This document shows positions 35,480 to 64,000 of a DNA stretch of 64,000 bases, in pieces. The notes beneath the pieces are model-generated. The model did not search any database. It was not told the DNA's origin and was given only the letters and a program-made list of their open reading frames with translations. Source of the DNA: Flavobacterium cupriresistens (GTDB taxonomy: Bacteria > Bacteroidota > Bacteroidia > Flavobacteriales > Flavobacteriaceae); assembly GCF_020911925.1 (NCBI RefSeq), contig NZ_CP087134.1:5394001-5458000 (forward strand), in the 5' to 3' direction. The position numbers and the translations under genes were made by a program. The first letter of the stretch is position 1. Each line of letters opens with the position of its first letter.

Positions 35480-35483
35480 ATAA

Positions 35484-47785: not shown

Positions 47786-47849
47786 TGTAAAAGTAGTATC
47801 AGAGTTCGTGATTTTAAAATTTCAATCCACTTGTATTCAGTAGTTTCAG
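47786..47849 (-). promoter_or_regulatory. Tail-locus promoter module, copy driving the GH19 protein gene
   Basis: On the minus strand CTGAAACTACTGAATACA begins at 47849. The -7-like box TACTTTTACA begins at 47795, 54 bp downstream, and lies 20-29 nt before the ATG at 47765. The same pair of elements occurs at four other promoters of this locus with 54-55 bp spacing. With its divergent twin it forms a long imperfect inverted repeat (47827-47886). Confidence 0.75.
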
Positions 47850-47864
47850 CAGAAATAGAACTTA

Positions 47865-47929
47865 CTGAAACTACTGAATACAGTGGTCTTTTTTTAGGTC
47901 GTTTTACATTTCTCTACCTTACTTTTACA
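47865..47929 (+). promoter_or_regulatory. Tail-locus promoter module, copy driving the first tail operon
   Basis: CTGAAACTACTGAATACA starts at 47865; with the preceding A it gives ACTGAA-N3-ACTGAA. TACTTTTACA starts at 47920, 55 bp later. The transcript would have a ~260-nt leader before the small membrane protein at 48200. That leader holds a small hairpin (AGGTGC 48142-48147, GCACCT 48152-48157) and no ORF I would call. There is no good -33 TTTG, which suggests dependence on an activator. Confidence 0.7.
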
Positions 47930-48199
47930 CCCTCAAATAACTGCTAATATGCTTGTCTTATAGGTAGCCGAAATTTCAAAATTTACCAAACCAATCTTAT
48001 AAAACAGTCCAAGTCTCATTAGATACTAAATGGGGAAAACGAAAATTTTTAAGCATTAATTATTTCTCGTTCGCTCCTGTCTATGAAAACAACACAACAA
48101 CCTCAGCAAAGGTTTTAACATTCTAAAATATTTACTGTATAAGGTGCAAGCGCACCTGCCATTACGTATTGAATCTCTTAATTATTTAAACTATAAAAA

Positions 48200-48379
48200 A
48201 TGAAAAACATGATTAAAAACTGGAAAACAACAGTAACAGGAATTATTGTTGGAGGAGTAGCAGCGGCAGTTGCTTTGGGTTATATCACAACAGAAGTTGG
48301 CACACAAATAACAGGTCTTTGCATTGCTCTTGGCTTAATTGTAAGCAAAGATGGTGATCAGACCGGTGTAACAAAGTAA
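48200..48379 (+). CDS. Small holin-like membrane protein
   Basis: The product has 59 residues, starting MKNMIKNWKTTVTGIIVGG, with two hydrophobic stretches (about 12-28 and 33-47) and a charged C-terminus (SKDGDQTGVTK). Short proteins of this shape are common next to tail fibres and lysis enzymes in Bacteroidota phages and are usually described as holin-like. It is the first gene after the divergent promoter pair shared with the GH19 hydrolase, which fits a lysis role. Holin function is inferred. Confidence 0.65.
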   Translation: MKNMIKNWKTTVTGIIVGGVAAAVALGYITTEVGTQITGLCIALGLIVSKDGDQTGVTK

Positions 48380-48391
48380 ACGCATTTCTCA

Positions 48392-48489
48392 GGAGGACGG
48401 GAAGTAAAAAATAGTCCTCCATCAGTAAAAAAACATCAAATCAGTTACCTAAAAAAGGGAATACTACGCGGAAACCGATATCGTATTCC
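48392..48489 (+). other. Two hairpins between the holin-like gene and the first fibre gene
   Basis: GGAGGAC (48392-48398) pairs with GTCCTCC (48414-48420). GGAATAC (48458-48464) pairs with GTATTCC (48483-48489), with an inner CGG-AAA-CCG stem. Neither has a T-run on the plus strand, so they may be processing or attenuation structures rather than plain terminators. Confidence 0.4.
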
Positions 48490-48570
48490 TTCCAAAATCA
48501 ATCTCAGGAAAGTTTGACTTTCTAAAAATCTACCATTTAATTACACTATTAAAATTAATACCAATACACT

Positions 48571-49263
48571 ATGACGACAGATATCAAGACAATTTTAAGC
48601 TGGTTTAAAACCGGCAAAAAGCCAACTGAAAAACAATTTTGGGATTCCTGGCTAAGTTTCTGGCATAAGGATGAACAGATTTCACAAAAAAACATAACCA
48701 ATCTGGTGGATACCCTGAATAATAAAGTAGAGACCGATCTATTTAATAGTCACCAAACAGATGAAACAGCACATGCCCAATTATTTGCAAAAACTAAAAT
48801 TGTCAAACCCGGAGAATTTATCGTTTTTAAAGTTGAACCAAATACAGCTGATTATTTAGAAATAGGCGACAGTGTGATTGGTTATTGTCAAGACAATTTC
48901 CTTTGTGAAGCAACGTACTACGGTGGAGATACCAGCTTGATGACCAGTTTTACCAAACTAAACAATAAAGTAGGCAGAATTGTATCATTCACTTCCAATG
49001 ATTCAAGTAATGATGACTTTATCATTTATGAACTTAATAATGAAGTCCTGCTTAGATCTTTGAGCTGTGGTGCATATAGCGGAGTTTATCTTATGTACAA
49101 AAAACCGGGAGAACAAGAATTCTCAAACGCATGGTTTAATGGCACTTATCCGAAAACATGGGTAACCTGGTTTGATTTTACTGCGGGTACAGTTATTAAA
49201 TTAATAGATACGATTGGTGGTTTGGAGGATTCGGAAGAATTTATAATTGGACAACCGGAGTAA
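48571..49263 (+). CDS. Short tail-fibre-like protein (paralogue A)
   Basis: The product has 230 residues. The first ~75 residues (ILSWFKTGKKPTEKQFWDSW, then LSFWHKDEQISQKNI, then HQTDETAHAQLF) are nearly identical to the starts of the proteins at 50803 and 53168. In phage-tail-like loci such a constant N-terminus attaches a variable fibre to the baseplate. The remaining ~150 residues form a compact beta-rich domain without fibre repeats, so it may be a short tail spike, a fibre-tip chaperone or a degenerate fibre. The ATG is preceded by a ~190-nt untranslated stretch with hairpins. Confidence 0.75.
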   Translation: MTTDIKTILSWFKTGKKPTEKQFWDSWLSFWHKDEQISQKNITNLVDTLNNKVETDLFNSHQTDETAHAQLFAKTKIVKPGEFIVFKVEPNTADYLEIGDSVIGYCQDNFLCEATYYGGDTSLMTSFTKLNNKVGRIVSFTSNDSSNDDFIIYELNNEVLLRSLSCGAYSGVYLMYKKPGEQEFSNAWFNGTYPKTWVTWFDFTAGTVIKLIDTIGGLEDSEEFIIGQPE

Positions 49264-49294
49264 ACCAGAGCAAAACCTTAAAAAAATAATACCT

Positions 49295-50437
49295 ATGAAA
49301 AAAACAATTACACTATGCATTTTAGCCATCGGAACGATCGTAAATGCTCAAAACCAGATTATAACTAAAAAATTACAACTTGATAATGTGCCCCCTGGGA
49401 ATAACACTGAAAAAATTCTTGTCATTGGAACAGATAAAATTGTAAAAAAAGTCGATATCCCTGCTGCTGCCAATGGCAGTGAAACCAAGATACAAGCCGG
49501 AACTAATATGACTATTACAGGAACCGGAACGAACTACAACCCTTATATTATTAATACTTCCGGTGGATCTTCTTCTACTCCCGTAAGTGCATCACTACCG
49601 GGAATTGTTGACAACAAAGTATTACAAGAATTGGGTGGAGTTGATAAATTAATCAATGGGATCAGAATTGGAAAAGGTAATTCCAACGTTTCTAACAACA
49701 CTGCAATAGGCGTAAACACGCTAAGATCTAATACTACCGGAGAATATAATACCGCAATTGGTTTTCTTGTCTTAGAATATAATACAACAGGAAAATCAAA
49801 CACCGGGCTTGGAGTTGGGGCATCTTATTATAATACTACCGGATATGAGAACACAGCCTTAGGCCATCAAACTTTAAATTTTAATACTGTTGGAAGTGGT
49901 AATACTTCTGTAGGATTTCAAAGTTTAGTTCGAAATTACGCGGACCAAAATACTGGAATAGGAACCTATTCCTTATGGAGAAATACTACAGGTGTCAGAA
50001 ACGTAGCGCTCGGATATGGCTCGGGAGTCGGCATATCTTCAGGATCGGGGAATGTAATAATTGGTACCTTAACACCTACTGCTGATTATAAATTGACCGT
50101 TAGCACGGGTAGCAATAACTTAGTAATAGCCCCAAACGGCGGTATTTTTAATGGTATAACTACTGGTTCCGGAAACATTGTCCTTGGAAAAGCAGAAGGA
50201 TTGCCGGCGGCTTTAGAGAATAATATTGTAATTGCTAACGGTATAGGCCAGATAAAAGCTCAAAACAATGGCACAAACTGGACGTTTAACGGGCAAATCA
50301 ATAAAAGTGCCTTTGATACCGCCCCAGTCTCTGCAACTGCTCCGGGCACACTTGGGGAAATTAGAATAACAACAACTTACATCTATGTTTGTACAGCAAC
50401 AAATACATGGGTTCGTTCTTCTTTAACAACCTGGTAA
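49295..50437 (+). CDS. Exported adhesin-like protein with YadA-head-type repeats
   Basis: The product has 380 residues from ATG 49295; the upstream in-frame ATG at 49247 overlaps the previous gene and would spoil the signal peptide. MKKTITLCILAIGTIVNAQ is a clear Sec signal. Residues ~115-240 carry repeats of the type 'NTAIGVNTLRSNTTGEY', spaced about 23 residues apart, like the left-handed roll of trimeric adhesin heads and some fibre proteins. The C-terminus (GTLGEIRITTTYIYVCTATNTWVRSSL) is of phage-fibre type. A signal peptide inside a tail-gene cluster is unusual. It may be a surface protein of the producer rather than a particle part. Confidence 0.75.
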   Translation: MKKTITLCILAIGTIVNAQNQIITKKLQLDNVPPGNNTEKILVIGTDKIVKKVDIPAAANGSETKIQAGTNMTITGTGTNYNPYIINTSGGSSSTPVSASLPGIVDNKVLQELGGVDKLINGIRIGKGNSNVSNNTAIGVNTLRSNTTGEYNTAIGFLVLEYNTTGKSNTGLGVGASYYNTTGYENTALGHQTLNFNTVGSGNTSVGFQSLVRNYADQNTGIGTYSLWRNTTGVRNVALGYGSGVGISSGSGNVIIGTLTPTADYKLTVSTGSNNLVIAPNGGIFNGITTGSGNIVLGKAEGLPAALENNIVIANGIGQIKAQNNGTNWTFNGQINKSAFDTAPVSATAPGTLGEIRITTTYIYVCTATNTWVRSSLTTW

Positions 50438-50802
50438 AATAGTACAAAATTTAGACTTGGTTGTGTCCTATTCTTGTAAAAACTACTTCCACATTTTACT
50501 GCATTAGAGCGATCAATAAGGGCATCATTCTCAGAAACAGCAATCTAAAAAATCAGCTAAATCATTATTTTTAAATAATTTAACTAAACTCAAAGCCAGA
50601 CTTGGAGAATTAAAACCTTCTAATGCTGGCTTTGTTTTACGTTTTGAACTCCCGGAGAGGTTTAATTCCATCCTTTTCAAATCAAAACAGGAGATCAATT
50701 TTCTGCAAATAACAGTCTCTGTAAATTATCCTTTTTACTCTTGCAAATACTACAATACTCTTATAAAAAAACAATTCAATTAATTCTTAATTCCAAAACA
50801 GC
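50438..50802 (+). other. 365-bp gap with terminator and paralogous leader
   Basis: The gap holds the terminator at 50591-50639. It also has a leader that matches the one before the third fibre gene: TTCTGCAAATAACAG at 50701 and AAAAAAACAATTCAATTAA near 50765. A weak box TACTCTTG (50736) could be a -7 element, but no CTGAAACTA is found 54 bp upstream of it. No ORF. Confidence 0.55.
50591..50639 (+). terminator. Terminator after the adhesin-like gene
   Basis: CAAAGCCAG (50591-50599) pairs perfectly with CTGGCTTTG (50626-50634), followed by TTTTAC. Confidence 0.8.
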
Positions 50803-52803
50803 ATGCCAACGAACATTAATATCATTTTAGGCTGGTTTAAGACCGGTAAAAAACCAACTGAAAAACAATTTTGGGATTCCTGGCTAAGTTTTTGGCATAA
50901 AGACGAACAAATTCCCCAAAACAGCGTAGCCAATCTAACGGATACTCTTGATGCTAAGGTCGGGAAATCTATATTTGACTCACATCAAACAGATAAAAAT
51001 GCACATGGCCCTTTATTGAATTTAAAAGAAGATAAATCCGAAAAAGGTCAAGCAAACGGTTATGCTCCGTTAGATGAAAATCAAAAGATATCAACTACTT
51101 ATTTACCTACTGTTCCTGCTCCTGTTTTAGACTCCGTACTTGCAGTCGGTAATATTTCTGCTAAAGACATTACTTTACAGGAAAGTTATTTTACAACCAC
51201 TGTTTCAAAAGGGACTGTTAATTTAGAATATGATGCCGGAGCAGATTTACTGAATAATCAAGTGAATTACAACGGAATGATTTTAAATTATTCACAAGAA
51301 GGAATACCAATGCATTCAACAATTTTAAATGCAGGATCTATATCCGTAAAGGATGAACAAAAGGGGGATGCTACAAGCTTAGACCCTACCCGATTTATAA
51401 TTTCACATTCCGGAACTAAACTAAATATAAAGGGAGAAAATGCTACAGGTACAGAGAAAAATTTACAATTGCCAAATGCCAATGCCACTCTTGCGGTTGC
51501 CGTAAATGGAAACGCTGCAGATGCCAGTGGTAATATAACTTTACCTATTGATACAACGAGTACCATTTCAAATCTTAGCACAGTTCAGGGAACAACCGCA
51601 ACAGCTGCACTCAACACATTAAACAGTCTAAAAGCAGATTTGTCCTCTCCAACTTTTACAGATATTCCAAATGCTCCTACAGCCGCAATAGGAACTAATA
51701 CATCTCAAATTGCAACTACTGCTTTTGTAGCTCAGGCTATGAGTTCAGCAACTGATACCGAAAATGTTAAACTAACCGGAAATCAGTCCGTCTCGGGTAA
51801 TAAATTAATGGTCAATACGGGTTCAAACTTATCTATTTTCAGGGTTTTAACACAATCAGATGCAGCAAATCCGGGAATTATTGCAACTACGGCATCTACA
51901 ACTCAACCAGCACTTCGCGTAAGCGCTACTTCTGCAAATGATACCACTGCTCAAAAAATTGCAATTGGACAGCAAGGCACGACAGGTTTAGAAGTATCCA
52001 ACATAGATGTTAATACAAATCCTACCAGCAGGTTATTAGTTCTTAATAATACTGCTTCAAAAAATAATGGCGTTCCTTTAACCGTTATAAAAAATGCAGC
52101 GACAGTGGCTTCTATTTCTGATGTGGGAGATATCACTGGCTTATCGTTTGTCAAAACCGGTGGAACCAAAACGCAATTTCTGAAAGCTGATGGCTCCATA
52201 GACTCTAATACTTATATCACTACAAGCGCAGATAGTAATTATCTAAAACTTACCGGTGCTCAAACTATTGGTGGTGAAAAAACGATTTCTAATAGTTCAG
52301 GTGCTTTGTATTTATCATCGGTAGCACGAAACTCAACTGTTTTCAAATCTGAAATATCAGGAATCGCCAATATAAGTCCTTCTTTTTCAACAGCCAATGA
52401 CATACCGGCTGTAGTTTTAAACAGTACCAATACCGGAGTTTTGTTAGAAGGCAGGAATAGTGGAAATCCAACTTTTACGCTCGACAAGACAGGAAATGCA
52501 ACTGCCAATTCTTTTATAAAAACGGGTGGAACTTCGAACCAATATTTACGAGCTGACGGAACTAGTTCGGTTATACTAAGCGGATCGGCAATCTTAAATC
52601 TTTCAAGCGCATCATCTGATGCAACGCTTCAGGTAGAAGGTGCGGAATTGAGTGACGTCGTTTCTTTAGGTATTGATCATGCTTGTGTTACTAAATATAC
52701 AGAATATTATGCTTGGGTAAGTTCCTTAAATACCGTGACAGTAAGAGTTAAAAATTTAGATCAGCCGGTATCGGGCTTATTCAAAGTAAAAGTCTTCAAA
52801 TAA
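50803..52803 (+). CDS. Tail-fibre-like protein (paralogue B)
   Basis: The product has 666 residues. The N-terminal ~75 residues match paralogues A and C (ILGWFKTGKKPTEKQFWDSW). Then follow 'GYAPLDENQKISTTYLPTV' and the fibre-type segments IDTTSTISNLSTVQG, AAIGTNTSQIATTAFVAQAM and 'FVKTGGTKTQFLKADGSI', the last repeated near the end as FIKTGGTSNQYLRADGT. These are widespread in long tail fibres. The C-terminal ~90 residues (ASSDATLQVEGAELSDVVSL) are a small beta domain that probably contacts the target surface. It is a stand-alone transcription unit between two terminators. Confidence 0.85.
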   Translation: MPTNINIILGWFKTGKKPTEKQFWDSWLSFWHKDEQIPQNSVANLTDTLDAKVGKSIFDSHQTDKNAHGPLLNLKEDKSEKGQANGYAPLDENQKISTTYLPTVPAPVLDSVLAVGNISAKDITLQESYFTTTVSKGTVNLEYDAGADLLNNQVNYNGMILNYSQEGIPMHSTILNAGSISVKDEQKGDATSLDPTRFIISHSGTKLNIKGENATGTEKNLQLPNANATLAVAVNGNAADASGNITLPIDTTSTISNLSTVQGTTATAALNTLNSLKADLSSPTFTDIPNAPTAAIGTNTSQIATTAFVAQAMSSATDTENVKLTGNQSVSGNKLMVNTGSNLSIFRVLTQSDAANPGIIATTASTTQPALRVSATSANDTTAQKIAIGQQGTTGLEVSNIDVNTNPTSRLLVLNNTASKNNGVPLTVIKNAATVASISDVGDITGLSFVKTGGTKTQFLKADGSIDSNTYITTSADSNYLKLTGAQTIGGEKTISNSSGALYLSSVARNSTVFKSEISGIANISPSFSTANDIPAVVLNSTNTGVLLEGRNSGNPTFTLDKTGNATANSFIKTGGTSNQYLRADGTSSVILSGSAILNLSSASSDATLQVEGAELSDVVSLGIDHACVTKYTEYYAWVSSLNTVTVRVKNLDQPVSGLFKVKVFK

Positions 52804-52832
52804 ATACTTTCTAAGGGCAATTTAATTTAATA

Positions 52833-52877
52833 CAAAGTCACCATTGAAGGTCTAAAAATCTTCTTATGGTGACTTTG
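52833..52877 (+). terminator. Terminator after fibre B
   Basis: CAAAGTCACCAT (52833-52844) pairs over 12 bp with ATGGTGACTTTG (52866-52877); the loop also contains GAAG/CTTC. It ends the fibre B transcript just before the next promoter module. Confidence 0.75.
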
Positions 52878-52952
52878 CTATAGTGAATAAACTGCTTCCT
52901 GAAAAACTCACAACAGCCTAAAAATCACAAACTAAATACTGTTTATTTTCTA

Positions 52953-53016
52953 CTGAAACTATCGAAACCAAGGGTTCCATTTTTCTTTTTTTCTCTTCTT
53001 CTAAACTACCTTTACA
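52953..53016 (+). promoter_or_regulatory. Tail-locus promoter module, copy driving fibre C
   Basis: CTGAAACTATCGAAACCA starts at 52953 and TACCTTTACA at 53007, 54 bp apart. A T/C-rich stretch between them (TTTTTCTTTTTTTCTC) is shared with the copy at 55703. The leader to the ATG at 53168 is about 140 nt; nothing else is seen in the 364-bp gap besides the terminator of fibre B. Confidence 0.75.
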
Positions 53017-53167
53017 TCCCCAAATATCAAATATCAGCATTGTATGCTGCATTCCGGTTTACAAAATTTCGGGATGTTTCTGCAAATAACAGCCATTCTG
53101 AGACCCATAAAAAAGCGCACTAATCGTACAAAAAAACAATTCAATTAACCATTAATTTCAATGTAAT

Positions 53168-55495
53168 ATGATAACAAACATCAATACCATTTTAGGCTGG
53201 TTTAAAACCGGAAAAAAGCCAACCCAAAAGCAATTTTGGGACACCTGGCAAAGTTTTTGGCATAAAGACGAACAAATTCCCCAAGCCAAGATAACCGATC
53301 TAACGGACGCACTAAATGCTAAAACAGAGAAAGTACAGTTTGAAGCCCACAAAATCGATAAAACCGCACACGCTTTTTTGTTTGAAGCTAAAGAAGACAA
53401 AAACCAAAAAGGTATTGCTGGCGGATACGCTCCATTAAACCATTTTACAAAATTAGCGAGTCAATATTTAGACATTGTAAATGATTTGATTTCCGGTGGT
53501 TCTGCTTCGCTTTTAAGTGCTGAACAGGGTATGATTTTGCAGGAGCAAATTAATACTATTACTATTTTGCTGACTTCAGACAATAGTAATCTGGACACAG
53601 TTCAAAAAATTGTAGATGCCATTGAAACTATCCAGGCTACTTTAAGTACTATTTTGGTAAACGATCTCACGAGCGGTGGAACTGCAAAAGCATTAACTGC
53701 CGAGATGGGAAAGCTATTAGAAAATAAAAAAGTAGACAAATCTCCTGGTAAAAGTTTACTTGCTGATACTGAAATCACCAGACTTGGTACACTTGCAAAT
53801 TACACTCATCCTGTTAATCATTCCCCTGATATTATTACTCAGAATCCCAATAATAGATTTGTAACAGATGACGAGAAAACGACTTGGAATACAAAACAAC
53901 CTGCATTAGGATTTATTCCTGAAAACGCTGCAAATAAAAATACCGTTAATGGTTATGCAGGGCTTGGTGCAGACGGAAAATTACTTTCTTCACAACTTCC
54001 TGCCCTAACTATAAACAACACTTTTGTAATTGCTTCCCAAGCAGAAATGTTGGCTTTAACAGTTGAAACCGGAGATATTGCAGTTAGAACCGATTTAAAC
54101 AAATCTTTCATTCTAAAAGGAACAAATCCAGCCGTACAATCAGATTGGCAGGAATTACTTACTCCTACCAGTGATGTTACAACGGTCTTTGGCCGTAATG
54201 GCGCTGTTACCTCCCAAAACGGAGATTATACGGCTAATCAGATTACGGAAACGGCAGAAAGAAAATTTCAATCGGCAACGCAACAAGCGTTTAATGATGC
54301 TACTTCCAGTATTCAGACACAATTAGACGCAAAAAAATCCAACGCCATCCATACAGGTGATGCGACCGGCGAAAATGTTTTAACGGTAAAAGGAATTAAT
54401 GGAACTTTACTTTCAGGATTGGCAACTGGTATTTTAAAGAATACAACGTCTACCGGAGTTCCTGTTATTGCCCAAGTTCGAACAGATTATGCTGAACCTA
54501 CAACAGCTCTGGAAACCGGTATTCTGAAAAACACCACTTCCAGCGGAGCCCATACCATTGCAGTAGCGAGCGATTTTCCAATCTTAAACCAAGATACAAC
54601 TGGCACAGCCAATAACGCAACAAATCTTGCCGGACAACCTGCCTCCTATTACGCACCAATTTATTCCCCTAGACTTTTGGGGGCACCAACAGCAATAACC
54701 CCAGCGCCGGGATCCGATTCCAGTCAAATAGCAACACTTGGTTATGTTACCATTATAGATAGTGACAATGTGAAGAAAACCGGAAGTCAAACTATAAGTG
54801 GTCATAAAACTTTTAACAACTTTGTAATGCTAGATTACGGTACGCTTTTTCTAAAACGACCAGACAATTCTGCCTACAATATGTTAACTGCAATAGAGGA
54901 TGGAATGCTGCTTAGCCCCAATTCTAACGGTAATTTTAAAACTGAAATAAGCTCCCATGGAATAAAATTTGGCAGATCATCGGTTCAGGCAGAACTTAAT
55001 ACCGATAATTTAACCGCCTCAAGAACCTTTCTAGTACCGAACAAATCCGGAACATTAGCCTTGAAAGATGATTTTATAGTAACATCTCCCGGTAACACCG
55101 TAAATCCGGCATTCATAATTCCAAACGGACAGTTAACCACGACCCCGCAAAATGGAGCGATAGAGCGTGACTCTAGTGGAATATTATGGGAAACTCATGC
55201 CGGAGTAAGAGATAAAATAAGCGTACCTGACGTTCCATACAAAAGTATCACGAATCTAAACACTTTATTTACGGGTTACAGACGAAGCTCGGTCAACACC
55301 TGTCAGGTACATACCGAAAGTGCTTTTTGTCCTGAGACAGGCACCTCCGCAACATGGGGAATACTAACCAGTTGTAAAACAGATGACACTGAAGATTACG
55401 GAATCCAAACCTATGTATCAATGGGTGCAGTACCTAATACTTATGTTCGAAATTGTAAAAATGGAATCTGGACAACGTGGACAAAATTAAGCTAG
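53168..55495 (+). CDS. Tail-fibre-like protein (paralogue C)
   Basis: The product has 775 residues. The N-terminal ~75 residues are the shared attachment region (ILGWFKTGKKPTQKQFWDTW). Next come GGYAPLNHFTKLASQYLD, a helical segment (LLTSDNSNLDTVQKIVDAIE), FVTDDEKTTWNTKQ and VFGRNGAVTSQNGDYTANQI, all standard long-fibre modules. The C-terminal ~90 residues (NLNTLFTGYRRSSVNTCQVH, then TWGILTSCKTDDTEDYGIQ, ending NGIWTTWTKLS) form the fibre-tip domain common to phages, where WTxWxxLS ends the chain. Receptor choice probably lies there. Confidence 0.87.
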   Translation: MITNINTILGWFKTGKKPTQKQFWDTWQSFWHKDEQIPQAKITDLTDALNAKTEKVQFEAHKIDKTAHAFLFEAKEDKNQKGIAGGYAPLNHFTKLASQYLDIVNDLISGGSASLLSAEQGMILQEQINTITILLTSDNSNLDTVQKIVDAIETIQATLSTILVNDLTSGGTAKALTAEMGKLLENKKVDKSPGKSLLADTEITRLGTLANYTHPVNHSPDIITQNPNNRFVTDDEKTTWNTKQPALGFIPENAANKNTVNGYAGLGADGKLLSSQLPALTINNTFVIASQAEMLALTVETGDIAVRTDLNKSFILKGTNPAVQSDWQELLTPTSDVTTVFGRNGAVTSQNGDYTANQITETAERKFQSATQQAFNDATSSIQTQLDAKKSNAIHTGDATGENVLTVKGINGTLLSGLATGILKNTTSTGVPVIAQVRTDYAEPTTALETGILKNTTSSGAHTIAVASDFPILNQDTTGTANNATNLAGQPASYYAPIYSPRLLGAPTAITPAPGSDSSQIATLGYVTIIDSDNVKKTGSQTISGHKTFNNFVMLDYGTLFLKRPDNSAYNMLTAIEDGMLLSPNSNGNFKTEISSHGIKFGRSSVQAELNTDNLTASRTFLVPNKSGTLALKDDFIVTSPGNTVNPAFIIPNGQLTTTPQNGAIERDSSGILWETHAGVRDKISVPDVPYKSITNLNTLFTGYRRSSVNTCQVHTESAFCPETGTSATWGILTSCKTDDTEDYGIQTYVSMGAVPNTYVRNCKNGIWTTWTKLS

Positions 55496-55541
55496 ACATC
55501 AAATCCAAAAACAAATAGCTTCTAAATAATAAAAAATAGTG

Positions 55542-55587
55542 CATCAAAGTCTATTCGAGCTTTTAAGCTTTCTTGTAGACTTTGATG
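55542..55587 (+). terminator. Terminator after fibre C
   Basis: CATCAAAGTCTA (55542-55553) pairs over 12 bp with TAGACTTTGATG (55576-55587), followed by a T-rich stretch (TACTTTGTTTG). Confidence 0.75.
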
Positions 55588-55702
55588 TACTTTGTTTGTA
55601 AAAAACAAATGGTAAATATTGCCAAACTAACGCAATTCTAAAACCAACAACCACCACAACATAACGTGCTGTTAACCAACAATAAACAGTTACTATTTTC
55701 TA

Positions 55703-55766
55703 CTGAAACTACAGAATCCAAGAGTCCAATTTTTCTTTTTTTCTCTTCTTGTGAACTACTTTTACA
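55703..55766 (+). promoter_or_regulatory. Tail-locus promoter module, copy driving the baseplate operon
   Basis: CTGAAACTACAGAATCCA starts at 55703 and TACTTTTACA at 55757, 54 bp apart, with the same T/C-rich filler as the copy at 52953. The leader to the first gene at 55892 is about 120 nt. The 396-bp gap 55496-55891 holds only this module and the terminator of fibre C. Confidence 0.75.
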
Positions 55767-55891
55767 TACGCTAATGCTACTGTCAGTACGCCTGACAAGA
55801 GCAATTATTCCCTTTCATTTTCAGCTTATTTTAAAGCAAAACCTCAACAATTGTAGATCAATTTTAATAATCAAATAACAATAAACTAATT

Positions 55892-56086
55892 ATGGATTAT
55901 ACACCAAAAGACCTGGGAGAAACACCTAGACCACCGGACATGAGTGCTTTTAAAAATCCCCTGGCACAACCATCGCAAGGAAACATTTTTATAGACAGTT
56001 TTACGATTAGTCCTTTAAGCCCAACTGAAAAAAAGGAAAGCTTGTCTGAAGCCATAAAGAAAGAAAGCAGAGACAGCGCTATTTAG
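55892..56086 (+). CDS. Small protein of the baseplate operon, unknown
   Basis: The product has 64 residues, Pro-rich at the start (DYTPKDLGETPRPPDMSAF) and charged at the end (TEKKESLSEAIKKESRDSAI). There is no membrane segment or known motif. It is the first gene after the promoter module and 76 nt ahead of the chaperone-like gene. Position would suit a small tail-assembly protein, but I do not recognise it. Confidence 0.55.
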   Translation: MDYTPKDLGETPRPPDMSAFKNPLAQPSQGNIFIDSFTISPLSPTEKKESLSEAIKKESRDSAI

Positions 56087-56162
56087 AGTCAAATGCTGCA
56101 AAAAACTTTTAGAGCTACTTCCGGTTCCCCTTAAAACGACCTAATTTATAAAATCACAAAAA

Positions 56163-56633
56163 ATGCCAGACGAAACTGCCCTTCAAAAACTAAAAGAAAA
56201 ATACGGAACGGTATTAAAACTTACTTCCGACGATCAATCGACCACTGCTTACTGCAAAAAACCATCCTTTACTACATTTCTAAAATACCAAAAGATATAC
56301 AAGGACAATCCGCATGAAGCCATCTTGTATTTATTTAAAGAATGCGTGCTTGAAAAAGAAAATTATGAAGACGAATTCATGCTTTCTGCAGGAAATTCGC
56401 TTGTAGCCACGATAAAAGCAGATAGCGAATTTACAATCGATGCCACACCCCAAAGAGATGAATTTAAAAAGTCGGCTGCTCTTATCAGACAGGCTTTTCA
56501 GGTAGATCCGTATCAATTATCGATGGACGAGTTTTACAAATTACTCGAAGAAGCCCTGTGGCTGCAAAAACACAACGAGATAAGACTGGAAAATACCTTT
56601 ATCACAGCCTTTGCTAAAACATTTTCAAACTAA
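56163..56633 (+). CDS. Tail-assembly-chaperone-like protein
   Basis: The product has 156 residues. The opening LQKLKEKYGTVLKLTSDD, then TTAYCKKPSFTTFLKYQKIY, resembles a family found in Bacteroidota tail loci in which a small protein begins '...KxKxGxVxxLTVDGxxxYLKKPDRKTL'. The rest is mainly helical (SAALIRQAFQVDPYQLSMDEF). In long-tailed phages such proteins keep the tape measure soluble. No tape measure is found next to it here, so the call is tentative. Confidence 0.55.
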   Translation: MPDETALQKLKEKYGTVLKLTSDDQSTTAYCKKPSFTTFLKYQKIYKDNPHEAILYLFKECVLEKENYEDEFMLSAGNSLVATIKADSEFTIDATPQRDEFKKSAALIRQAFQVDPYQLSMDEFYKLLEEALWLQKHNEIRLENTFITAFAKTFSN

Positions 56634-56653
56634 AAATAAAAAAAGAAATACGT

Positions 56654-57211
56654 ATGAAATTCAATTTTAATGTAAACGAAATTTTAGACTCCAAAGACAA
56701 CGAATATACCGGTATTAACTATAACAAATCGGAATCGAAAGATTTTATTATAGACAAAACGGGCGGTGAATTTAATCTGAGAGTTTTTGCTCCTTTGGTT
56801 TTCGAACCTCTGGTAAAAAAAGATCTTACCCTTCCCAGCTTGCGAATCGATGCTGTTACCGTTAATCTAAATCGTTCAAAAACCATAAAAAAAGAGAGCA
56901 TCGAAGGAAGAGATTCAACGATCAAAGAACATATTACCAATGGCGATTTTAGTATTTCTATTGACGGATTGATTGCGAATGAAAAAGGGGATGAATACCC
57001 AAAAGAAAAACTTTTTTTATTGAAACAATTTCTAAATGCTCCCTATTCCTTAAGAATTACGCATGCCATTTTGAATCGATTTGGAATTTACGAGTTAGTA
57101 ATCGATTCCTACTCTATCCCATCTATTTCGGGAACAAAAAACATTCAAAAATTTACTGCCAGTGCGACCTCAGATGAAACCGTAGAACTAATAATTAGAG
57201 ACAATGTTTAA
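56654..57211 (+). CDS. DUF6046-type tail/baseplate protein
   Basis: The product has 185 residues. The layout fits the DUF6046 family of Bacteroidota phages: LPSLRIDAVTVNLNRSKTIK, then IEGRDSTIKEHITNGDFSIS, then IDGLIANEKGDEYPKEKLFL and FGIYELVIDSYSIPSISGTK, then FTASATSDETVEL. Members sit just before the baseplate hub and may take the place of the LysM-type tail-tube-to-baseplate connector. It overlaps the hub gene by 8 nt, so assembly partners are likely translated together. Confidence 0.7.
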   Translation: MKFNFNVNEILDSKDNEYTGINYNKSESKDFIIDKTGGEFNLRVFAPLVFEPLVKKDLTLPSLRIDAVTVNLNRSKTIKKESIEGRDSTIKEHITNGDFSISIDGLIANEKGDEYPKEKLFLLKQFLNAPYSLRITHAILNRFGIYELVIDSYSIPSISGTKNIQKFTASATSDETVELIIRDNV

Positions 57212-58505
57212 ACTAAATGCTAAAATTAGAGTCTACGAAACGGTAAAACTTATCCCAACTCCGAAGTTCTACGAATTTACCTATGTAAAAAATGTAGACA
57301 TCAGCAGTTCGTATAAATCGCTTACCGATACGGCTACTCTTGTAATGCCAAAAAAAGTATATACCGATACCAAAGATTTTGATCAGAATCTGTTTTCGAA
57401 TGCAAGTGGTAAAGAAAAATCAATTCATGATTTTTTTAAACTGGAAAATTTTATTGAAATATTTTTAGGCTATGACGGCGATTACAAATCGGCTTTTCGA
57501 GGGTATATAACCGGAGTCCAATCAGACATCAATGCGACTATATCTTGTGAAGACATGATGTATGCTTTAAAAAAGATAAAAGCAGTAAAAAATGATGATG
57601 TTCAGAATCCGAATGATGTCCTTAATGTTGTTGCCGCAAACCCTACTATAAATGTTGAAAATTTTAATCCTAAAACGTTCTTCGAAAAAAGAATCAGAGA
57701 GCTAAAATTACCTTTTAAAGTAAATGCGCTTAACGAGGAATTAGGTAACATCATGATCAACAGAAACCATAGTCTGGCACAGATATTTGAAATGCTCAAA
57801 GATCGCGGGATTTTCACCTATTTTAAAATCGAAAAAACAGGGCCGGTACTTACCATTACCAATAATCCACAGCAATATACGGCCACTGAATTAGGAGGTT
57901 TTATCGATCGAAATTTTATTAAAAGTCCATTAGTAGGAGCGATTACAAAAAAACTAATCAATAAAGGTCTTGACTTGTTAAGTTCCCAATTAAACAAAGT
58001 AATGCAAGTCATTCCCGGAGGTTTTTTAGGAAAAGCACTTTTCAGGTTTCATTACAATATTATAGAAGACAAATTGGTAGTAGTGAACGAGTCCACGAAG
58101 AATACCCGTACACGAGTAGAAAAATACTTTAAAAACTCAAACACTCCCATTTATATTGAATTAGGCGACCCCAACGGACAGTTAATCAAAACCCATGTAT
58201 TGCATAGTGATACAGATGAATTACCTACAGATCCAACGGCTTTTAAAAAAGCTGCTGCAGAAACTGCTGCAGAATTGTTCCAACATGCCGCTTTCAGAGC
58301 AATGGGATCTAAACCAAGTGGTTTTGAAGGTTCTTTTCTCACTTTTGGCGAGCCGTTTGTGCGTCCTACAGATAAAGTGATTCTTGAAAATGCAATGGAT
58401 ATTGAAAAAAACGGAACTTTTCAGGTCGAGAAAGTAGAACGAAGTTATGGCGAGAACGGTTACAGACAAAGGATTTATATAGGTAGAAGAGTCGAAGCAA
58501 TATAA
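57204..58505 (+). CDS. Baseplate hub protein (phage late control gpD / gp27-like)
   Basis: The product has 433 residues. The first third has the hub fold pattern: VDISSSYKSLTDTATLVMPK, then FIEIFLGYDGDYKSAFRGYI, then TGVQSDINATISCEDMMYAL. A second domain follows (NIMINRNHSLAQIFEMLKDR, then GIFTYFKIEKTGPVLTITNN), matching the duplicated tube-like domains of gp27/gpD. The C-terminus (ILENAMDIEKNGTFQVEKVE, then RSYGENGYRQRIYIGRR) is typical of gpD. Trimers of such proteins connect the tube to the spike, whose gene follows after 10 nt. Confidence 0.8.
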   Translation: MFKLNAKIRVYETVKLIPTPKFYEFTYVKNVDISSSYKSLTDTATLVMPKKVYTDTKDFDQNLFSNASGKEKSIHDFFKLENFIEIFLGYDGDYKSAFRGYITGVQSDINATISCEDMMYALKKIKAVKNDDVQNPNDVLNVVAANPTINVENFNPKTFFEKRIRELKLPFKVNALNEELGNIMINRNHSLAQIFEMLKDRGIFTYFKIEKTGPVLTITNNPQQYTATELGGFIDRNFIKSPLVGAITKKLINKGLDLLSSQLNKVMQVIPGGFLGKALFRFHYNIIEDKLVVVNESTKNTRTRVEKYFKNSNTPIYIELGDPNGQLIKTHVLHSDTDELPTDPTAFKKAAAETAAELFQHAAFRAMGSKPSGFEGSFLTFGEPFVRPTDKVILENAMDIEKNGTFQVEKVERSYGENGYRQRIYIGRRVEAI

Positions 58506-58515
58506 AAATACACAA

Positions 58516-59523
58516 ATGGAAAATATAACAGATCTAGTAAAAAATGTTGCTGCTAAAAATCAACGTATTGAAACTTTTGCGGCAAGAGTCATTGAAATAA
58601 ACAAAGAGCAAGCATCACTTCATAATCCCGAAGATGCTTATACCGTAAACATTATGCGAGGCGATGGCGCCATACTTAAAAATGTACGACTAAAAGCCTC
58701 CATTCAGGATTTAGAGCACGGAATTATCACAATTCCTAAAAAAGACAGCTGGGTTTTGGCTACTATAATAGACGGAGTTGAAACCCGTGCCTTTATTTCG
58801 CAATATGCTGAAGTCGACAGAGTAATGGGGCGCATACAAGCCACAAGTGATCCCAAATTGTTTTTTGATTATAGCGCCGATGGTACCAAACTGCATATTC
58901 GTTACATGAAAACAGATACCGAAGGCGAAAGTAATGAGGCCAAAATTACAGATGTCGCTAAAATAGAGTTTGATAAAGACCAAAATTTTAAAATCAGCTA
59001 CTTTGATGCTGACGAAAAACCATTGGCCGTTACCCATTTTTCGCCAGACAGTCTCACCGCTACTTTTAACTCAGTTAAAGATAATGTTGTAACGGAGGGT
59101 TCCGTCTTAAAAATCACAAAAAATACAACAGACCTAAAAATAAATGATGATAAAGGTAAAAAACGGACTAGTTTACTACTAAAACCAAGTAATATCTCGG
59201 CTCGTTTATTTAATGAAGATGAAAAGGAAAAGCTAACATTTGAACTGAGTGGTAACGAAAAGGCAGAAATAAAACTTACAGATTCAAATGATACCATTCT
59301 ATTAGAGAAAGATAAAATTCAATTAAAAAAAGATCCCAACAATTTAATTGAACTTTTAGGTCAAAATGGTGTTAATATACTGACTTCCGGTAATATTAAT
59401 TTAAAAGGAGCAAATATAAATATCGATGCCAGCACCAATATAAGTATTAAAGCAAATAGCGAAATAATAGTAGAAGCCGCTAAGGATACGACCATAAAAG
59501 GAGATAACGTACTAATTAATTAA
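58516..59523 (+). CDS. Central spike protein (gpV/gp5/VgrG-type)
   Basis: The product has 335 residues. An OB-fold domain lies at ~30-100 (ASLHNPEDAYTVNIMRGDGA, then GIITIPKKDSWVLATIIDG), the usual base of spikes. A middle beta part leads into the C-terminal triple beta-helix with short repeats (NINLKGANINIDASTNISI, then KANSEIIVEAAKDTTIKGDN). There is no enzyme domain in the spike itself. It lies 3 nt before the PAAR-like tip gene, the canonical order for contractile injection machines. Confidence 0.85.
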   Translation: MENITDLVKNVAAKNQRIETFAARVIEINKEQASLHNPEDAYTVNIMRGDGAILKNVRLKASIQDLEHGIITIPKKDSWVLATIIDGVETRAFISQYAEVDRVMGRIQATSDPKLFFDYSADGTKLHIRYMKTDTEGESNEAKITDVAKIEFDKDQNFKISYFDADEKPLAVTHFSPDSLTATFNSVKDNVVTEGSVLKITKNTTDLKINDDKGKKRTSLLLKPSNISARLFNEDEKEKLTFELSGNEKAEIKLTDSNDTILLEKDKIQLKKDPNNLIELLGQNGVNILTSGNINLKGANINIDASTNISIKANSEIIVEAAKDTTIKGDNVLIN

Positions 59524-59526
59524 ATT

Positions 59527-61617
59527 ATGGCCAAATATATATGTAACGGTGCTACGTGTAAATGTTCTTCGGGAACTAAAGACGGCGCATTAAAGGTTGA
59601 ATCTCAAAGCAAAATTTTTATCCAGAATAAATTAATGGCTACTGAAAACGAAAAAACGTTTTTAGAAAATTTTGGCGAATGCAACAGTAAAAGCCCTTCT
59701 ATCCCATGCGTACCCAATATCCTTACCCCTTGGAGTAGCCCAAAAAGCAATGTTCTTCAGAATAAACACAAAGGGTTATTAGAAGCTTCTACTGTGATGT
59801 GTGCTAATCTTGGGAAAATTAATATTTTAGATTCTAAACAATCTCAAACAAAAAATGTCAAACTTGGAGATTACTCATCTGAGCCAAAAGAAATATCAAA
59901 GGTGTATGCCAAAGTCAGAACTTTAGAATCTTATAAGGGGGAATTTGGTTTTGATTGGATAGATGTACATCCGGAAACAATGGATATCGAAAAAATACAA
60001 GGCATTCCCTTTGAAAATGTTGAATACTTTTATAAAAAAGGAAAATCACCACAAGAATTAGGGAATATCATAGCTAAAAGTACTGATGAGGCAGGCGCAA
60101 TTCAAGCTGTTCAAGAAAATTACGGACTAATCAATTTTTGTAATCATGTTGACATCCCTTTCGTTTTATTAAAACCAATTCAAGAAATAACATTGGATCT
60201 TGAAGTCTTTTTTGAAGGAGAAAGCCAGGATGATTATATATCTATTACAGGTGATGAATTTTATGATTTTAAAATTGTAGGAGAAGAAGAAAGAAAAGAT
60301 AAAAATGACAAAACGACAAAGAAAAAAATAGTAGCTAATGAAAAGCTCCTCCTTACAATAAAATGTTTGAAAGAATCGTTAGACAAAACCTACTATTTTT
60401 TACACAGTGGCATAAATGGACCCCGTGAAGTTGGAGGTCTTAGTCTGATCGAAAACAAAGTCTTGAAGCTAAAGTTTAGAGTTATTGCTTTGGTCTCAAA
60501 CGAAGGAAATCCTAATACAAAAGCAAAAGCACTTTTCGAAAAATTCAGGGACAATGGCATTACAAAACACCTCGACGAAAACTCGTTGAATCAGGCTGGT
60601 TATAAAATTGAAATTGAAAATGAGGAAATGTTTGACAATTTAGAAAATCCTTCTCTTAATCTTGACGATTACTTATATGCTTTTGACAAGGAAGATTGGA
60701 CAAATAAAAACTATTATAATGCAGGAATGCTCTTCAAAAATATTAAAGTTGATACTGGTAAAAAAGATCCAGAAGGAAACCCAATTACAGTAACTAAGCA
60801 TATAGATTTTGTAACAATTGAGGAGTATATCAAAAAGCTAAAAAGAAAAAATAAACTTTATTCGGGCGGTCTAATTATTCTAACTGACAGTAGATCTATG
60901 GGCACAACAGGAGCTTTTAGCAGATTCAATCCTTTTAACCATTATGCTTTATTTGTATACGCTACTAATATTGGGTCCAAACAAACCTATTCTCACGAAA
61001 TTGGGCATATGTTAGGACTTAATCACACTTTTTATTTAGGAGATGAAGGTTTTAAAGAAAAATGGAATGAGTTGGAAAACTCTAAAAATGATATTCTCAA
61101 AATCCAAAATAATGCATCCCCAATATTTGGAAACTCGGAAATAACAACTAAACGATCACTAATTTTAGATGCATTAAATAAAACCAATGCTGTTTTTCGA
61201 AATGATATTAGAAAAAGAAAGATTGAATATAATAAAACAAAGAACTCTACGGGAAATTTCATATGGGATAAAAAACCTGTTAGTAAAAAAGTGTTTTTAG
61301 AAAAATCACTAGCAGCTATTACTGAAAAAGAAAATCAAGAAAAGTCAAACACTCAAGCTATTAAAGAATTCTCGTTAAAAAAGGATACTATTTATATCGA
61401 TTATACTAAGATTGATAACTCTACCTTTTTTATTCTGAAAGAGAATTATTTGTCAATAAAAAAAGATTATTTAAAATATTACTCTTTTTTCCTCACAAAA
61501 AATTATTTACTTTATAAAAAAGGTTCAACAAAAAATATGATGGATTATTCCTCCAACCAAGAGCGAATTCAATTTCATCAGATAAAAATAATGAGAGACG
61601 ATTATGAGTACTATTGA
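59527..61617 (+). CDS. DUF4280 (PAAR-like) spike-tip protein fused to a metzincin protease domain
   Basis: The product has 696 residues. Residues 1-120 are a DUF4280 domain: YICNGATCKCSSGTKDGALK, IQNKLMATENEKTF, FGECNSKSPSIPCVPN, PW, and VMCANLGKINI. DUF4280 is PAAR-like, and its Cys pattern binds a metal at the needle tip. A beta-rich linker at ~140-330 follows, then a protease domain at ~340-696 with HEIGHMLGLNH at 490-500 (HExxHxxGxxH zinc site) and a Met-turn candidate NMMDYS near 671. Together these define a metzincin. This is the layout of a specialised effector carried into a target cell on the spike. No adjacent immunity gene is seen; the next gene is a repressor on the other strand. 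Confidence 0.88.
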   Translation: MAKYICNGATCKCSSGTKDGALKVESQSKIFIQNKLMATENEKTFLENFGECNSKSPSIPCVPNILTPWSSPKSNVLQNKHKGLLEASTVMCANLGKINILDSKQSQTKNVKLGDYSSEPKEISKVYAKVRTLESYKGEFGFDWIDVHPETMDIEKIQGIPFENVEYFYKKGKSPQELGNIIAKSTDEAGAIQAVQENYGLINFCNHVDIPFVLLKPIQEITLDLEVFFEGESQDDYISITGDEFYDFKIVGEEERKDKNDKTTKKKIVANEKLLLTIKCLKESLDKTYYFLHSGINGPREVGGLSLIENKVLKLKFRVIALVSNEGNPNTKAKALFEKFRDNGITKHLDENSLNQAGYKIEIENEEMFDNLENPSLNLDDYLYAFDKEDWTNKNYYNAGMLFKNIKVDTGKKDPEGNPITVTKHIDFVTIEEYIKKLKRKNKLYSGGLIILTDSRSMGTTGAFSRFNPFNHYALFVYATNIGSKQTYSHEIGHMLGLNHTFYLGDEGFKEKWNELENSKNDILKIQNNASPIFGNSEITTKRSLILDALNKTNAVFRNDIRKRKIEYNKTKNSTGNFIWDKKPVSKKVFLEKSLAAITEKENQEKSNTQAIKEFSLKKDTIYIDYTKIDNSTFFILKENYLSIKKDYLKYYSFFLTKNYLLYKKGSTKNMMDYSSNQERIQFHQIKIMRDDYEYY

Positions 61618-61689
61618 ATTAATTACAAAAACAATATAGATCCCTTTCATTAAAACTAAGAAAACTTTTCGTGCAAACTTTTGTCCATT

Positions 61690-61754
61690 TGTCAGGCTGA
61701 GCGGAGTCGAAGCCCTTATTATTTAACAAGCCTTCGACTCCGCTCAGGGTGACA
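61690..61754. repeat. REP-like inverted repeat
   Basis: CTGAGCGGAGTCGAAG (61697-61712) pairs perfectly with CTTCGACTCCGCTCAG (61732-61747). TGTCA and TGACA flank it, with a GG/GG mismatch between. Hairpins with this GAGCGGAGTCGAAG core are scattered widely in flavobacterial genomes. The sequence is much GC-richer than its surroundings. The rest of the 344-bp gap 61618-61961 holds only the terminator at 61910. Confidence 0.85.
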
Positions 61755-61909
61755 ATCGTATAAAAAAAATCGATTAATACCTTGTAAAACCTTTCTTAAC
61801 CGCTAATATTTGTCCTATTTCTCAAAAAAAACCTTTGCAGACCTTACCTTAAATACATTACCAATATTTAAAAAAGTTTACATTTTATTCACTTAAAAAC
61901 ATCTAAAAT

Positions 61910-61950
61910 AAACGAGGCTATCAAAAAGTAATTTTTAGATAGCCTCGTTT
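61910..61950. terminator. Bidirectional terminator between the tip gene and the repressor gene
   Basis: AAACGAGGCTATC (61910-61922) pairs over 13 bp with GATAGCCTCGTTT (61938-61950); T-rich ends occur in both directions. It separates the converging spike-tip and repressor transcripts. Confidence 0.85.
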
Positions 61951-61961
61951 TTGCTTTTGTA

Positions 61962-62765
61962 TTAATTAAGTTTTTTCTTTAAAGTCTCTTCCAATTCGTA
62001 GAATTTACTTTCAAGTGTATGTAGTTTTTCATAAATATTAATCGGATCCGGCATTTGCTTAGAAGCGTACATACTGGCGTACCAAACTTCCAAAATATCC
62101 TCTGCATAAATCGAATACATCGGATAATTCCCGTCTCTGTTGTCTGATTTAAGGATTAATTTTCCACTCTCTCTGATTCGGTTTAGCACTCTTTTTACAA
62201 CAACTCCGTCATTCTTACTGATAATAACATAAATCCTTCCGTCGAGTATATCATCAAAATTATCAACGTATTTTCCAAAAAGATAATCGCCGTCGTGTAT
62301 GGTGGTTGACATCGAATTTCCTTTAATTTCAAAACATCTGTAGGTTCCGTTTTTTAACATTGGCATGCTAAAGGAAGGAAGACTCTCCATATATTCCGGA
62401 TCAGAATAACCGTCTAAATAACCGGCGCGTGCCTTCACCCCTATAAAATTAATATTCTCGTCTCCTTTTTCATTTACCGTTATAATCTTAGGTAATTTTA
62501 AATTGACGTCATTACTATTTGTTGCAGTCACAAAAATCTCTTCGCTGTCACCAAAAAAATATTCCGGATTTACATTACAGTGTTTAATTATACTATTGAT
62601 CAGATCGAAGCCCGGTTTAGTTCTTTTCCTGTTTCCATCAGATTGTAATCTGCCACCAGTAATACTGTCTATTGTAGTACTGGTTACTCCTATTAACTTA
62701 GCAAAGGAATTATTATTCAGATTCATCTCGTCTATAATACGTTTTATTTTAGCGTGTATTTCCAT
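61962..62765 (-). CDS. XRE-S24 (CI/LexA-like) repressor, autocleavable
   Basis: The product has 267 residues. A helix-turn-helix lies at ~1-60 (NNNSFAKLIGVTSTTIDSIT). A LexA-type S24 domain has its scissile pair A114-G115 (VKARAGYLDG), nucleophile S151 (IKGNSMSTTIHDGD) and general base K191 (GVVVKRVLNR). The C-terminus is a coiled coil (YEKLHTLESKFYELEETLKK). All catalytic parts for RecA-stimulated self-cleavage are present, so the controlled genes should be DNA-damage inducible. Its gene is divergent from the unit starting at 63231, and candidate operators lie at both promoters. Confidence 0.93.
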   Translation of the reverse strand: MEIHAKIKRIIDEMNLNNNSFAKLIGVTSTTIDSITGGRLQSDGNRKRTKPGFDLINSIIKHCNVNPEYFFGDSEEIFVTATNSNDVNLKLPKIITVNEKGDENINFIGVKARAGYLDGYSDPEYMESLPSFSMPMLKNGTYRCFEIKGNSMSTTIHDGDYLFGKYVDNFDDILDGRIYVIISKNDGVVVKRVLNRIRESGKLILKSDNRDGNYPMYSIYAEDILEVWYASMYASKQMPDPINIYEKLHTLESKFYELEETLKKKLN

Positions 62766-62776
62766 CTTATCATTGC

Positions 62777-62832
62777 TTTATGTAATATGTTTTTATTTCC
62801 TGTAAAACATTCCACTATATGTTGCAAAAATA
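62777..62832 (-). promoter_or_regulatory. Repressor promoter with candidate operators
   Basis: A -7 box TATTTTTG is on the minus strand (62832-62825) with a weaker TTG 16 bp upstream. Downstream of it lie ATATGTTG (62817-62824) and TTTATGTAATATGTTT (62777-62792). The last is identical over 16 bp to 63167-63182 in front of the divergent unit, so the same protein, most simply the repressor itself, probably binds both. Confidence 0.55.
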
Positions 62833-63149
62833 AATAATATATGCTTAACAATTGTCTTTCTTTCTCTTTTTTTTCATTAAACACTTAATTATCAATACTC
62901 CATTACTCTTTTTCTTACCTGATTTCCGTAATGCAAAGCTGACTAAACTCGTGCTAACTCACTGATACAGGACACTTACCTGCAATAATACCCAAATTCA
63001 ATTTTTATTTTTTTCTGAAACGAAATAGGTACAACTTTTCTTAAACCCTACTATTTAAAGAGATAAAGACCTCTTTATTGTAGTAAAGTACTGTACTAAA
63101 CAGCCTTTTTTCAGGTCAAAAAACAGCAATTAGCAGGCTTATCATATTA

Positions 63150-63211
63150 CTGAAACTATTGCATTTTTTATGTAATATGTTTGCAATATCTAAACATATG
63201 TTTTATATTTG
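63150..63211 (+). promoter_or_regulatory. Tail-locus promoter module with repressor palindrome, driving the second plus-strand unit
   Basis: CTGAAACTATTGCATTTT starts at 63150 and the perfect -7 box TATATTTG at 63204, 54 bp later. A TTTG -33 is at 63180-63183. Between them lies the perfect 12-bp palindrome AAACATATGTTT (63192-63203), and TTTATGTAATATGTTT overlaps the -33. A repressor here would block the polymerase. The rest of the gap 62766-63230 shows no gene. Confidence 0.75.
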
Positions 63212-63895: not shown

Positions 63896-64000
63896 ATGAA
63901 AAGAAGCAGAACACTATTAGACAAAAGAAGAGATTATGTGATTAACTACTTAAATAGTAATCAGGCCAAACAAATGAAGGTTGTAGTCTCTGAACTTTCC
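63896..64000 (+). CDS. N-terminus of a probable helix-turn-helix regulator, cut by window edge
   Basis: ATG at 63896 opens a frame of 35 codons to the window end: MKRSRTLLDKRRDYVINYLN, then SNQAKQMKVVVSELS. The basic start and the 'VINYL...QMKVVVSELS' helices look like the front of a small helix-turn-helix protein of the kind found early in Bacteroidota tail-like loci. It would be an attractive candidate for the activator that reads the CTGAAACTA modules. Both points need the rest of the gene. Confidence 0.5.
   Translation, partial: MKRSRTLLDKRRDYVINYLNSNQAKQMKVVVSELS

Follow-up and report, generated by a model that had tools for sequence, protein, structure and literature searches.

A conserved element at a fixed distance from the promoter boxes of a tail-like locus in Flavobacterium, and a small protein as its candidate activator

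Introduction

In Pseudomonas aeruginosa, the R and F pyocins are governed by a self-cleaving repressor, PrtR, which restrains the gene for an activator, PrtN, and this activator binds a P-box ahead of the tail-like genes (PMC8609362). The small activators Ogr of phage P2 and Delta of phage P4 similarly use a TGT-N12-ACA site at four late promoters (PMC3931495). Here we describe a short element, CTGAAACTA, that recurs ahead of the genes of a tail-like locus in Flavobacterium cupriresistens, each time at a fixed distance from a promoter box of the form TAnnTTT(A/G). The DNA analysed is a stretch of 64,000 nucleotides (contig NZ_CP087134.1, positions 5,394,001 to 5,458,000 of the forward strand), hereafter called the window. 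We consider it likely that a dedicated activator binds this element, and that the activator in question is a 59-residue protein encoded from window position 63896 under an early promoter presumably repressed by an S24 protein.

Such a circuit would resemble that of PrtR and PrtN without detected homology to PrtN. Both combine a self-cleaving repressor (here a predicted one), an activator (here a candidate) and a conserved box at tail-like genes. Unlike PrtN, the 59-residue protein belongs to no PrtN family that we could match, and the arrangement differs further in its eight separate promoters, in the presence of a site on the activator's own promoter and in the fixed spacing to the box. The Ogr/Delta site is positioned near -55. 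The likeness to that system lies in a small activator candidate and in a short site that recurs at multiple late promoters; unlike the 59-residue protein, Ogr is a zinc-finger protein with the pattern CX2CX22CX4C. GerE of Bacillus, a small stand-alone LuxR-type activator with a helix-turn-helix (HTH), is comparable in its small, HTH-only size, and its function is otherwise unrelated to this locus. The box itself is that of the promoters recognized by the main sigma factor in Flavobacterium, reported as TAnnTTTG or, more generally, TAnnTTT(G/A) at -12 to -5 (PMC9723704). The promoters described here are unlike ordinary promoters of that kind in having a degenerate -33 element together with an upstream 13-bp element at each of the eight.

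Results

Eight promoters share an element 54 or 55 bp from the box

Six copies of CTGAAACTA are present in the window, compared with 0.72 expected from shuffled sequences, among which the largest count was 4. A first-pass annotation of this DNA had listed five of these copies along with TAnnTTT(A/G) boxes located 54, 55, 54, 54 and 54 bp downstream, and reading of the sequence bore out every position and distance (Table 1). The sixth copy, at 3264, resides within the span of a long open reading frame (ORF) on the opposite strand, and no TANNTTTR box occurs at 49-59 bp from it.

We then searched the entire 5.74-Mb genome with the pattern CTGAAACTA-N40-50-TANNTTTR, which places the box at 49-59 bp, using the reversed pattern as a control. 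Of the 11 matches (3 for the control), eight have a spacing of 54 or 55 bp, and all eight fall within 22 kb (5441788-5463930) of a single tail-like locus, while the other three, with spacings of 51, 49 and 53 bp, are at scattered positions. A run with N44-46 produced no match beyond these eight. A genome-wide motif search was the means by which the first-pass annotation had proposed that it might be refuted, and no match at 54 or 55 bp was found outside the locus. All five of the promoters that it counted are real, although the total is eight, three of them past the window end (5458080, 5462221 and 5463869): one follows the activator-candidate gene ahead of the sheath gene, one precedes the endolysin gene and one precedes baseplate genes. 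The longer core CTGAAACTAYWG has 20 copies in the genome; each of the seven in the locus has a box at 54 or 55 bp, as against none of the 13 outside it, and the eighth site, at 52953, carries a variant of this core. A looser scan of the genome, allowing up to three mismatches to the 15-bp repeat, was uninformative (439 matches versus 399 for the control).

The full core, A-CTGAAACTA-C(T/A)-G, is an imperfect direct repeat with a 9-bp period. A logo was constructed from 110 distinct Flavobacterium sites for which CTGAAACT and TAnnTTT were required, and the evidence that it offers is confined to the remaining columns. Among these, the A before the C is conserved in 95% of sites, and the letters that follow are A (100%), C (86%), T/A (98%) and G (100%), a pattern that reveals AC(T/A)G half sites 9 bp apart. 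Moreover, a T located 23 bp upstream of the box is conserved in 97% of the same sites, T/C and then G/T being the usual next letters, so that a degenerate -33 element seems to be kept at these promoters. The earlier statement that four of the five promoters lack a -33 TTTG is therefore literally right, and it passes over this residual element. With the main-sigma box at -12 to -5, the core spans approximately -67 to -55. A conserved site at a fixed distance from the box, joined to a weak second element, is what would be expected of an activator-dependent promoter.

The site and the 59-residue protein occur together

The element with a box at 53-55 bp is present in 37 of 150 Flavobacterium genomes. 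Ten of these carry 5-10 matches each (75 in total, a few of them on contigs other than that of the locus), against 0 to 4 for the reversed control in the same genomes, and the other 27 carry one or two (28 in total, summed by hand). The 59-residue protein is found in exactly the same ten genomes. A homologue of the sheath is more widespread, occurring in 21 of the 150, namely the same ten and 11 others that lack the small protein. Because these 11 genomes contain at most one match each, it is the small protein that the element tracks, rather than the sheath in itself. Likewise, phage pippi8-1, which has a related sheath, and ten loci surrounding sheath homologues (L161-L170, each 3.4-3.8 kb) yielded no site with a box at 53-55 bp.

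In a survey of 395 genomes from across the phylum, the protein was detected in nine, every one of them belonging to the same order, and eight of the nine corresponding three-kb loci contain the site with a box at 54 or 55 bp. A search with the protein sequence returned 119 homologues, some of which carry source labels such as 'HTH domain-containing protein'. Of the 63 genome loci found by the protein alone, 58 carry the site with a box at 53-55 bp. Sites at 54 or 55 bp are present in all 28 Flavobacterium loci (one filed as [Flexibacter]), and the site was also seen in four of five loci from Dokdonia and a metagenome-assembled contig filed as Limnohabitans (one at 53 bp), and in five of eight from Tenacibaculum, Aquimarina and one further member of the Flavobacteriaceae. 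Limnohabitans is a betaproteobacterium, and the contig in question (L082), with its Flavobacterium-like tail locus and site, is probably mis-binned. Among loci on viral contigs, 31 of 34 carry the site, many of them probably representing the same kind of locus as in isolate genomes.

The spacing also emerges when no motif is presupposed. In mostly non-coding parts of the Flavobacterium loci, the commonest 6-mer ahead of TAnnTTTR boxes is CTGAAA at -54, which precedes 89 of 460 boxes. For 2130 distinct boxes from 28 relatives, CTGAAA occurs at -54 in 92 cases and at -55 in 31, compared with an average of 1.4 for the remaining offsets; the highest count among those, 15 at -45, matches the second half of the repeat.

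An altered site with the same spacing in Chryseobacterium

The Flavobacterium-type element with a box was not found in Chryseobacterium in first scans, and a profile scan gave four matches only. Reading of the intergenic DNA revealed a different core, ACTGCAACTACAG. The sequence CTGCA(A/G)CTACAG is present in all 22 Chryseobacterium loci, and in 21 a box accompanies it at 53-55 bp; in the remaining locus, L106, the core is present and the box absent. Among 41 distinct sites, (T/G)AnnTTT is located at exactly 54 bp in 31, and the other distances within the 35-74 range are 53 (one site), 61 (seven), 62 (one) and 67 (one). When up to two mismatches are allowed, the altered core matches 65 times in the 22 loci, versus a mean of 8.5 for permuted cores. 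A logo of 30 non-redundant sites, selected for the core and not for the box, exhibits high conservation at +55 and +57 to +61, the first letter of the box usually being G, and conservation extends to two A-rich blocks (+25 to +28 and +45 to +49) as well as to a C at +30.

We searched the 22 loci with 21 proteins of the Flavobacterium locus, and within 10 kb only three kinds were detectable: the S24 repressor, in all 22 loci (24-33% identity), the 59-residue protein (59-63% identity) and the N-termini of fibres (8 of 22). Since the 59-residue protein is among the few still detectable while site and spacing persist, no other product is a better candidate for recognition of the site. The proposal of the first-pass annotation that the activator is encoded nearby, with a start at 63896, thus gains independent support from the shared set of ten genomes and from the persistence of this protein in Chryseobacterium alongside the 54-bp spacing.

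The combined pattern was also applied to three Chryseobacterium chromosomes and one Flavobacterium chromosome, yielding 3, 3, 4 and 6 matches versus at most one for the control, with the six Flavobacterium matches confined to a single 25-kb stretch. In C. indologenes AA5 (CP018786), a site with its box at 4197057 (L182 2058) is separated from the activator gene by approximately 960 kb. It stands 346 bp upstream of a 247-amino acid (aa) fibre-like gene and a 1285-aa gene, which suggests that fibre cassettes may be controlled in trans. An unlinked site in Chryseobacterium sp. E1 (CP078104), at 1871582 (L183 2083), precedes a 271-aa protein with no assigned function.

The early promoter carries both a site and a presumed operator

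The S24 protein encoded next to the early operon exhibits the domain, the Ser/Lys pair and the Ala-Gly cleavage site anticipated for a self-cleaving repressor, its ARAG, GNSM and VVKRV motifs being those expected of such proteins. The promoter of the early operon carries both an activator site and the presumed S24 operator, followed by a good box. The operator, an ATGTT-N11-AACAT inverted repeat, is the sole match to ATGTT-N8-12-AACAT in the window. A script reading of 28 Flavobacterium loci located the repeat 27 or 28 bp past the C of the site in 26, always in the order site, repeat, box; of the two others, L061 departs from the site by a single letter, its first, and in L066 the sequence is truncated where the contig ends. 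The site at 63150 looks like part of a repressor-controlled early promoter that drives the activator candidate. The label of late promoter given to it previously would hold for seven of the eight sites and not for this one.

In Chryseobacterium locus L098 (9233-10001), a different inverted repeat (CGAACAATGTTCG) adjoins a TATATTTG box upstream of the activator gene and is perhaps a repressor operator; no activator site was noticed there.

The 59-residue protein and the products of the locus

The activator-candidate gene is under purifying selection, with 1491, 950 and 7224 differences at the three codon positions in turn. A site begins within about 10 bp of its stop codon in ten of ten Flavobacterium genomes and in five of the eight loci from Tenacibaculum, Aquimarina and other Flavobacteriaceae. 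Comparison with PrtN gave no family match at E≤1, nor any in 27 members at E≤0.1, in searches of Pfam, which presumably holds a PrtN model, with HMMER filters that drop most weak matches. The protein of this genome contains no cysteine and so lacks the four-cysteine zinc finger of Ogr and Delta, to whose family it likewise gave no match.

Other proteins of the locus include a contractile sheath (PF10758, 1.1e-72; phrog_907) sharing 35% identity with its counterpart in the complete phage pippi8-1, a tube (phrog_4579), hub proteins (phrog_4930 and phrog_5233), a fibre (PF22337) and baseplate proteins, together with lysis genes of its own for an endolysin (phrog_15351) and a holin (phrog_13191). 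A PHROGs scan of 20 locus proteins produced a sole head label (phrog_9206, 4.3e-23); it was assigned to the tube protein, for which a tail family is matched as well. By these matches, the locus looks like an R-type tailocin. Reading by eye identifies a 59-aa ORF at 48200-48379 as the first after promoter B and, after promoter D, a 64-aa ORF (55892-56086) followed by hub/DUF4280 genes (56163-61617). Three paralogous fibre-like genes (48571, 50803 and 53168) share an N-terminus, and only that at 53168 is immediately preceded by a site; the interval from 50437 to 50803 yielded none. To the left of the tail locus, at window positions 31960-37388, is a cluster resembling type IV pilus or type II secretion genes (T2SSF, prepilin peptidase, T2SSE and secretin).

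Table 1. Positions of sites, boxes and associated genes, in window coordinates
Feature	Position	Strand	Remarks
Promoter A, activator-site core	47841..47849	-	Box TACTTTTA at 47788-47795 (-), 54 bp; predicted to drive 1415-aa ORF 43518-47765 (-)
Promoter B, activator-site core	47865..47873	+	Divergent from A; box TACTTTTA at 47920-47927, 55 bp
Two inverted 18-bp arms from divergent sites A and B	47832..47882	.	Arms 47832-47849 and 47865-47882
Promoter C, activator-site core	52953..52961	+	Box TACCTTTA at 53007-53014, 54 bp; precedes fibre ORF 53168-55495
Promoter D, activator-site core	55703..55711	+	Box TACTTTTA at 55757-55764, 54 bp
Promoter E (early promoter), activator-site core	63150..63158	+	Box TATATTTG at 63204-63211, 54 bp
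Inverted repeat ATGTT-N11-AACAT, presumed S24 repressor operator	63177..63197	.	Between site E and its box
S24 (LexA/CI-like) repressor, 267 aa	61962..62765	-	PF00717 1.5e-10 (above cut-off); phrog_4 1.7e-22
190-aa protein, first gene of early operon	63234..63806	+	No match in family scans
59-aa HTH-like activator candidate, gene start	63896..64000	+	Extends past the window end to G000:C1:5458072, or stop just after

Discussion

From these arrangements we infer binding by the activator, the direction of regulation, the action of the repressor and a trigger by DNA damage. The S24 repressor, predicted to be self-cleaving, would bind the inverted repeat on the early promoter and keep that promoter off. 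Its loss, presumably after DNA damage, would allow the early operon to be transcribed and the 59-residue protein to be made. This protein would then bind ACTGAAACTACTG, one copy probably occupying each of the half sites that are spaced 9 bp apart, and would recruit the main-sigma polymerase to TAnnTTTR promoters whose -33 element is degenerate. In this manner seven late promoters might be turned on, serving the genes for the 1415-aa protein, fibres, hub, sheath and tube, lysis and baseplate, and the protein could boost its own promoter through site E.

Several observations weigh against assigning the site to the 59-residue protein or against its classification. Within Flavobacterium the locus co-occurs as a whole, so that co-occurrence in this genus does not distinguish the protein from its neighbours. 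Five of the 63 genome loci (L084, L096, L112, L113 and L106) encode the protein and have no site with a box at 53-55 bp. Relatives 55-60% identical, on viral contigs of approximately 53 kb (L148-L150), have no site in the 14-16 kb examined. A distant match in another genus (L179, G250) has no site with a box in the 3 kb scanned, and Chryseobacterium phage MA9V-3, with a 44% identical protein (L180 12001-12201), has none in 24 of its 103 kb. The HTH call is itself weak, as the protein matches no Pfam, NCBIfam or PHROGs family above cut-off, and the best profile match to a solved structure, GerE (1fse), is not significant at E 0.05. The AlphaFold2 model consists of two helices (mean predicted local distance difference test score, pLDDT, 89.6; predicted template modelling score, pTM, 0.47), and structure comparison with this model yielded nothing usable for an HTH assignment.

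Given these observations, it is conceivable, though in our judgement unlikely, that the site is bound by another regulator, from the host or from elsewhere in the locus, with the 59-residue protein acting as a passenger or cofactor. Such an alternative would accommodate the co-occurrence of all the tail genes in Flavobacterium and the few loci that have the protein without the site. On the other hand, both the protein and the site clusters are absent from 140 of the 150 Flavobacterium genomes, and the 22 Chryseobacterium loci have kept site and spacing although little besides the S24 repressor, the 59-residue protein and some fibre N-termini can still be detected there.

Because element and box travel as a single unit, the whole 60 bp might instead constitute an alternative-sigma promoter, or include an UP-like element, and require no activator; we regard this as highly improbable. 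UP elements are A/T-rich, unlike the specific 13-bp core, which precedes the box by about 40 bp. The scanned proteins of the locus included no recognizable sigma factor, and the box is the usual one of the main sigma factor (PMC9723704).

The chance is slimmer still that the site is the operator of the S24 repressor and that the late promoters are merely repressed. The repressor gene does lie beside the locus, and one site is at its divergent promoter. However, 26 of 28 loci have a distinct inverted repeat at the early promoter, of which the window contains a single copy, and the sites are upstream of the -33 region, a position that would be unusual for blocking polymerase. Furthermore, the Dokdonia loci L083-L086 have no S24 homologue detectable by tblastn at 1e-3, yet three of the four carry the site. 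It is scarcely credible that the copies arose by recent duplication and lack any regulatory role. Promoters C and D are indeed similar over about 60 bp, but the spacers of the other promoters differ freely while their length and both ends are fixed in several genera.

Beyond this one locus, binding of the element by the 59-residue protein would fit a broader proposal, which we favour with somewhat less assurance. An undescribed family of HTH proteins of about 50-60 residues may be the master activator of tail-like particles across Flavobacteriaceae and Weeksellaceae, acting through one site 54-55 bp from the box, exerting feedback at the repressor-controlled promoter of its own gene and reaching distant fibre genes in Chryseobacterium. 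Among the literature matches listed, none describes a control circuit for tail-like particles in Bacteroidota, although an earlier report may exist; the DNA words of the element returned, among the matches listed, unrelated titles only.

Tail-like particles are common bacterial weapons, and the present analysis supplies for them a regulator candidate, its site, a presumed repressor and a presumed operator. The site is specific enough to locate unlinked genes of the regulon, as the fibre-like pair of strain AA5 suggests, and it might also be put to use in Flavobacterium genetics as an inducible switch. If the proposal is true, the scattered weapon parts of Chryseobacterium would be made together through fibre genes controlled in trans.

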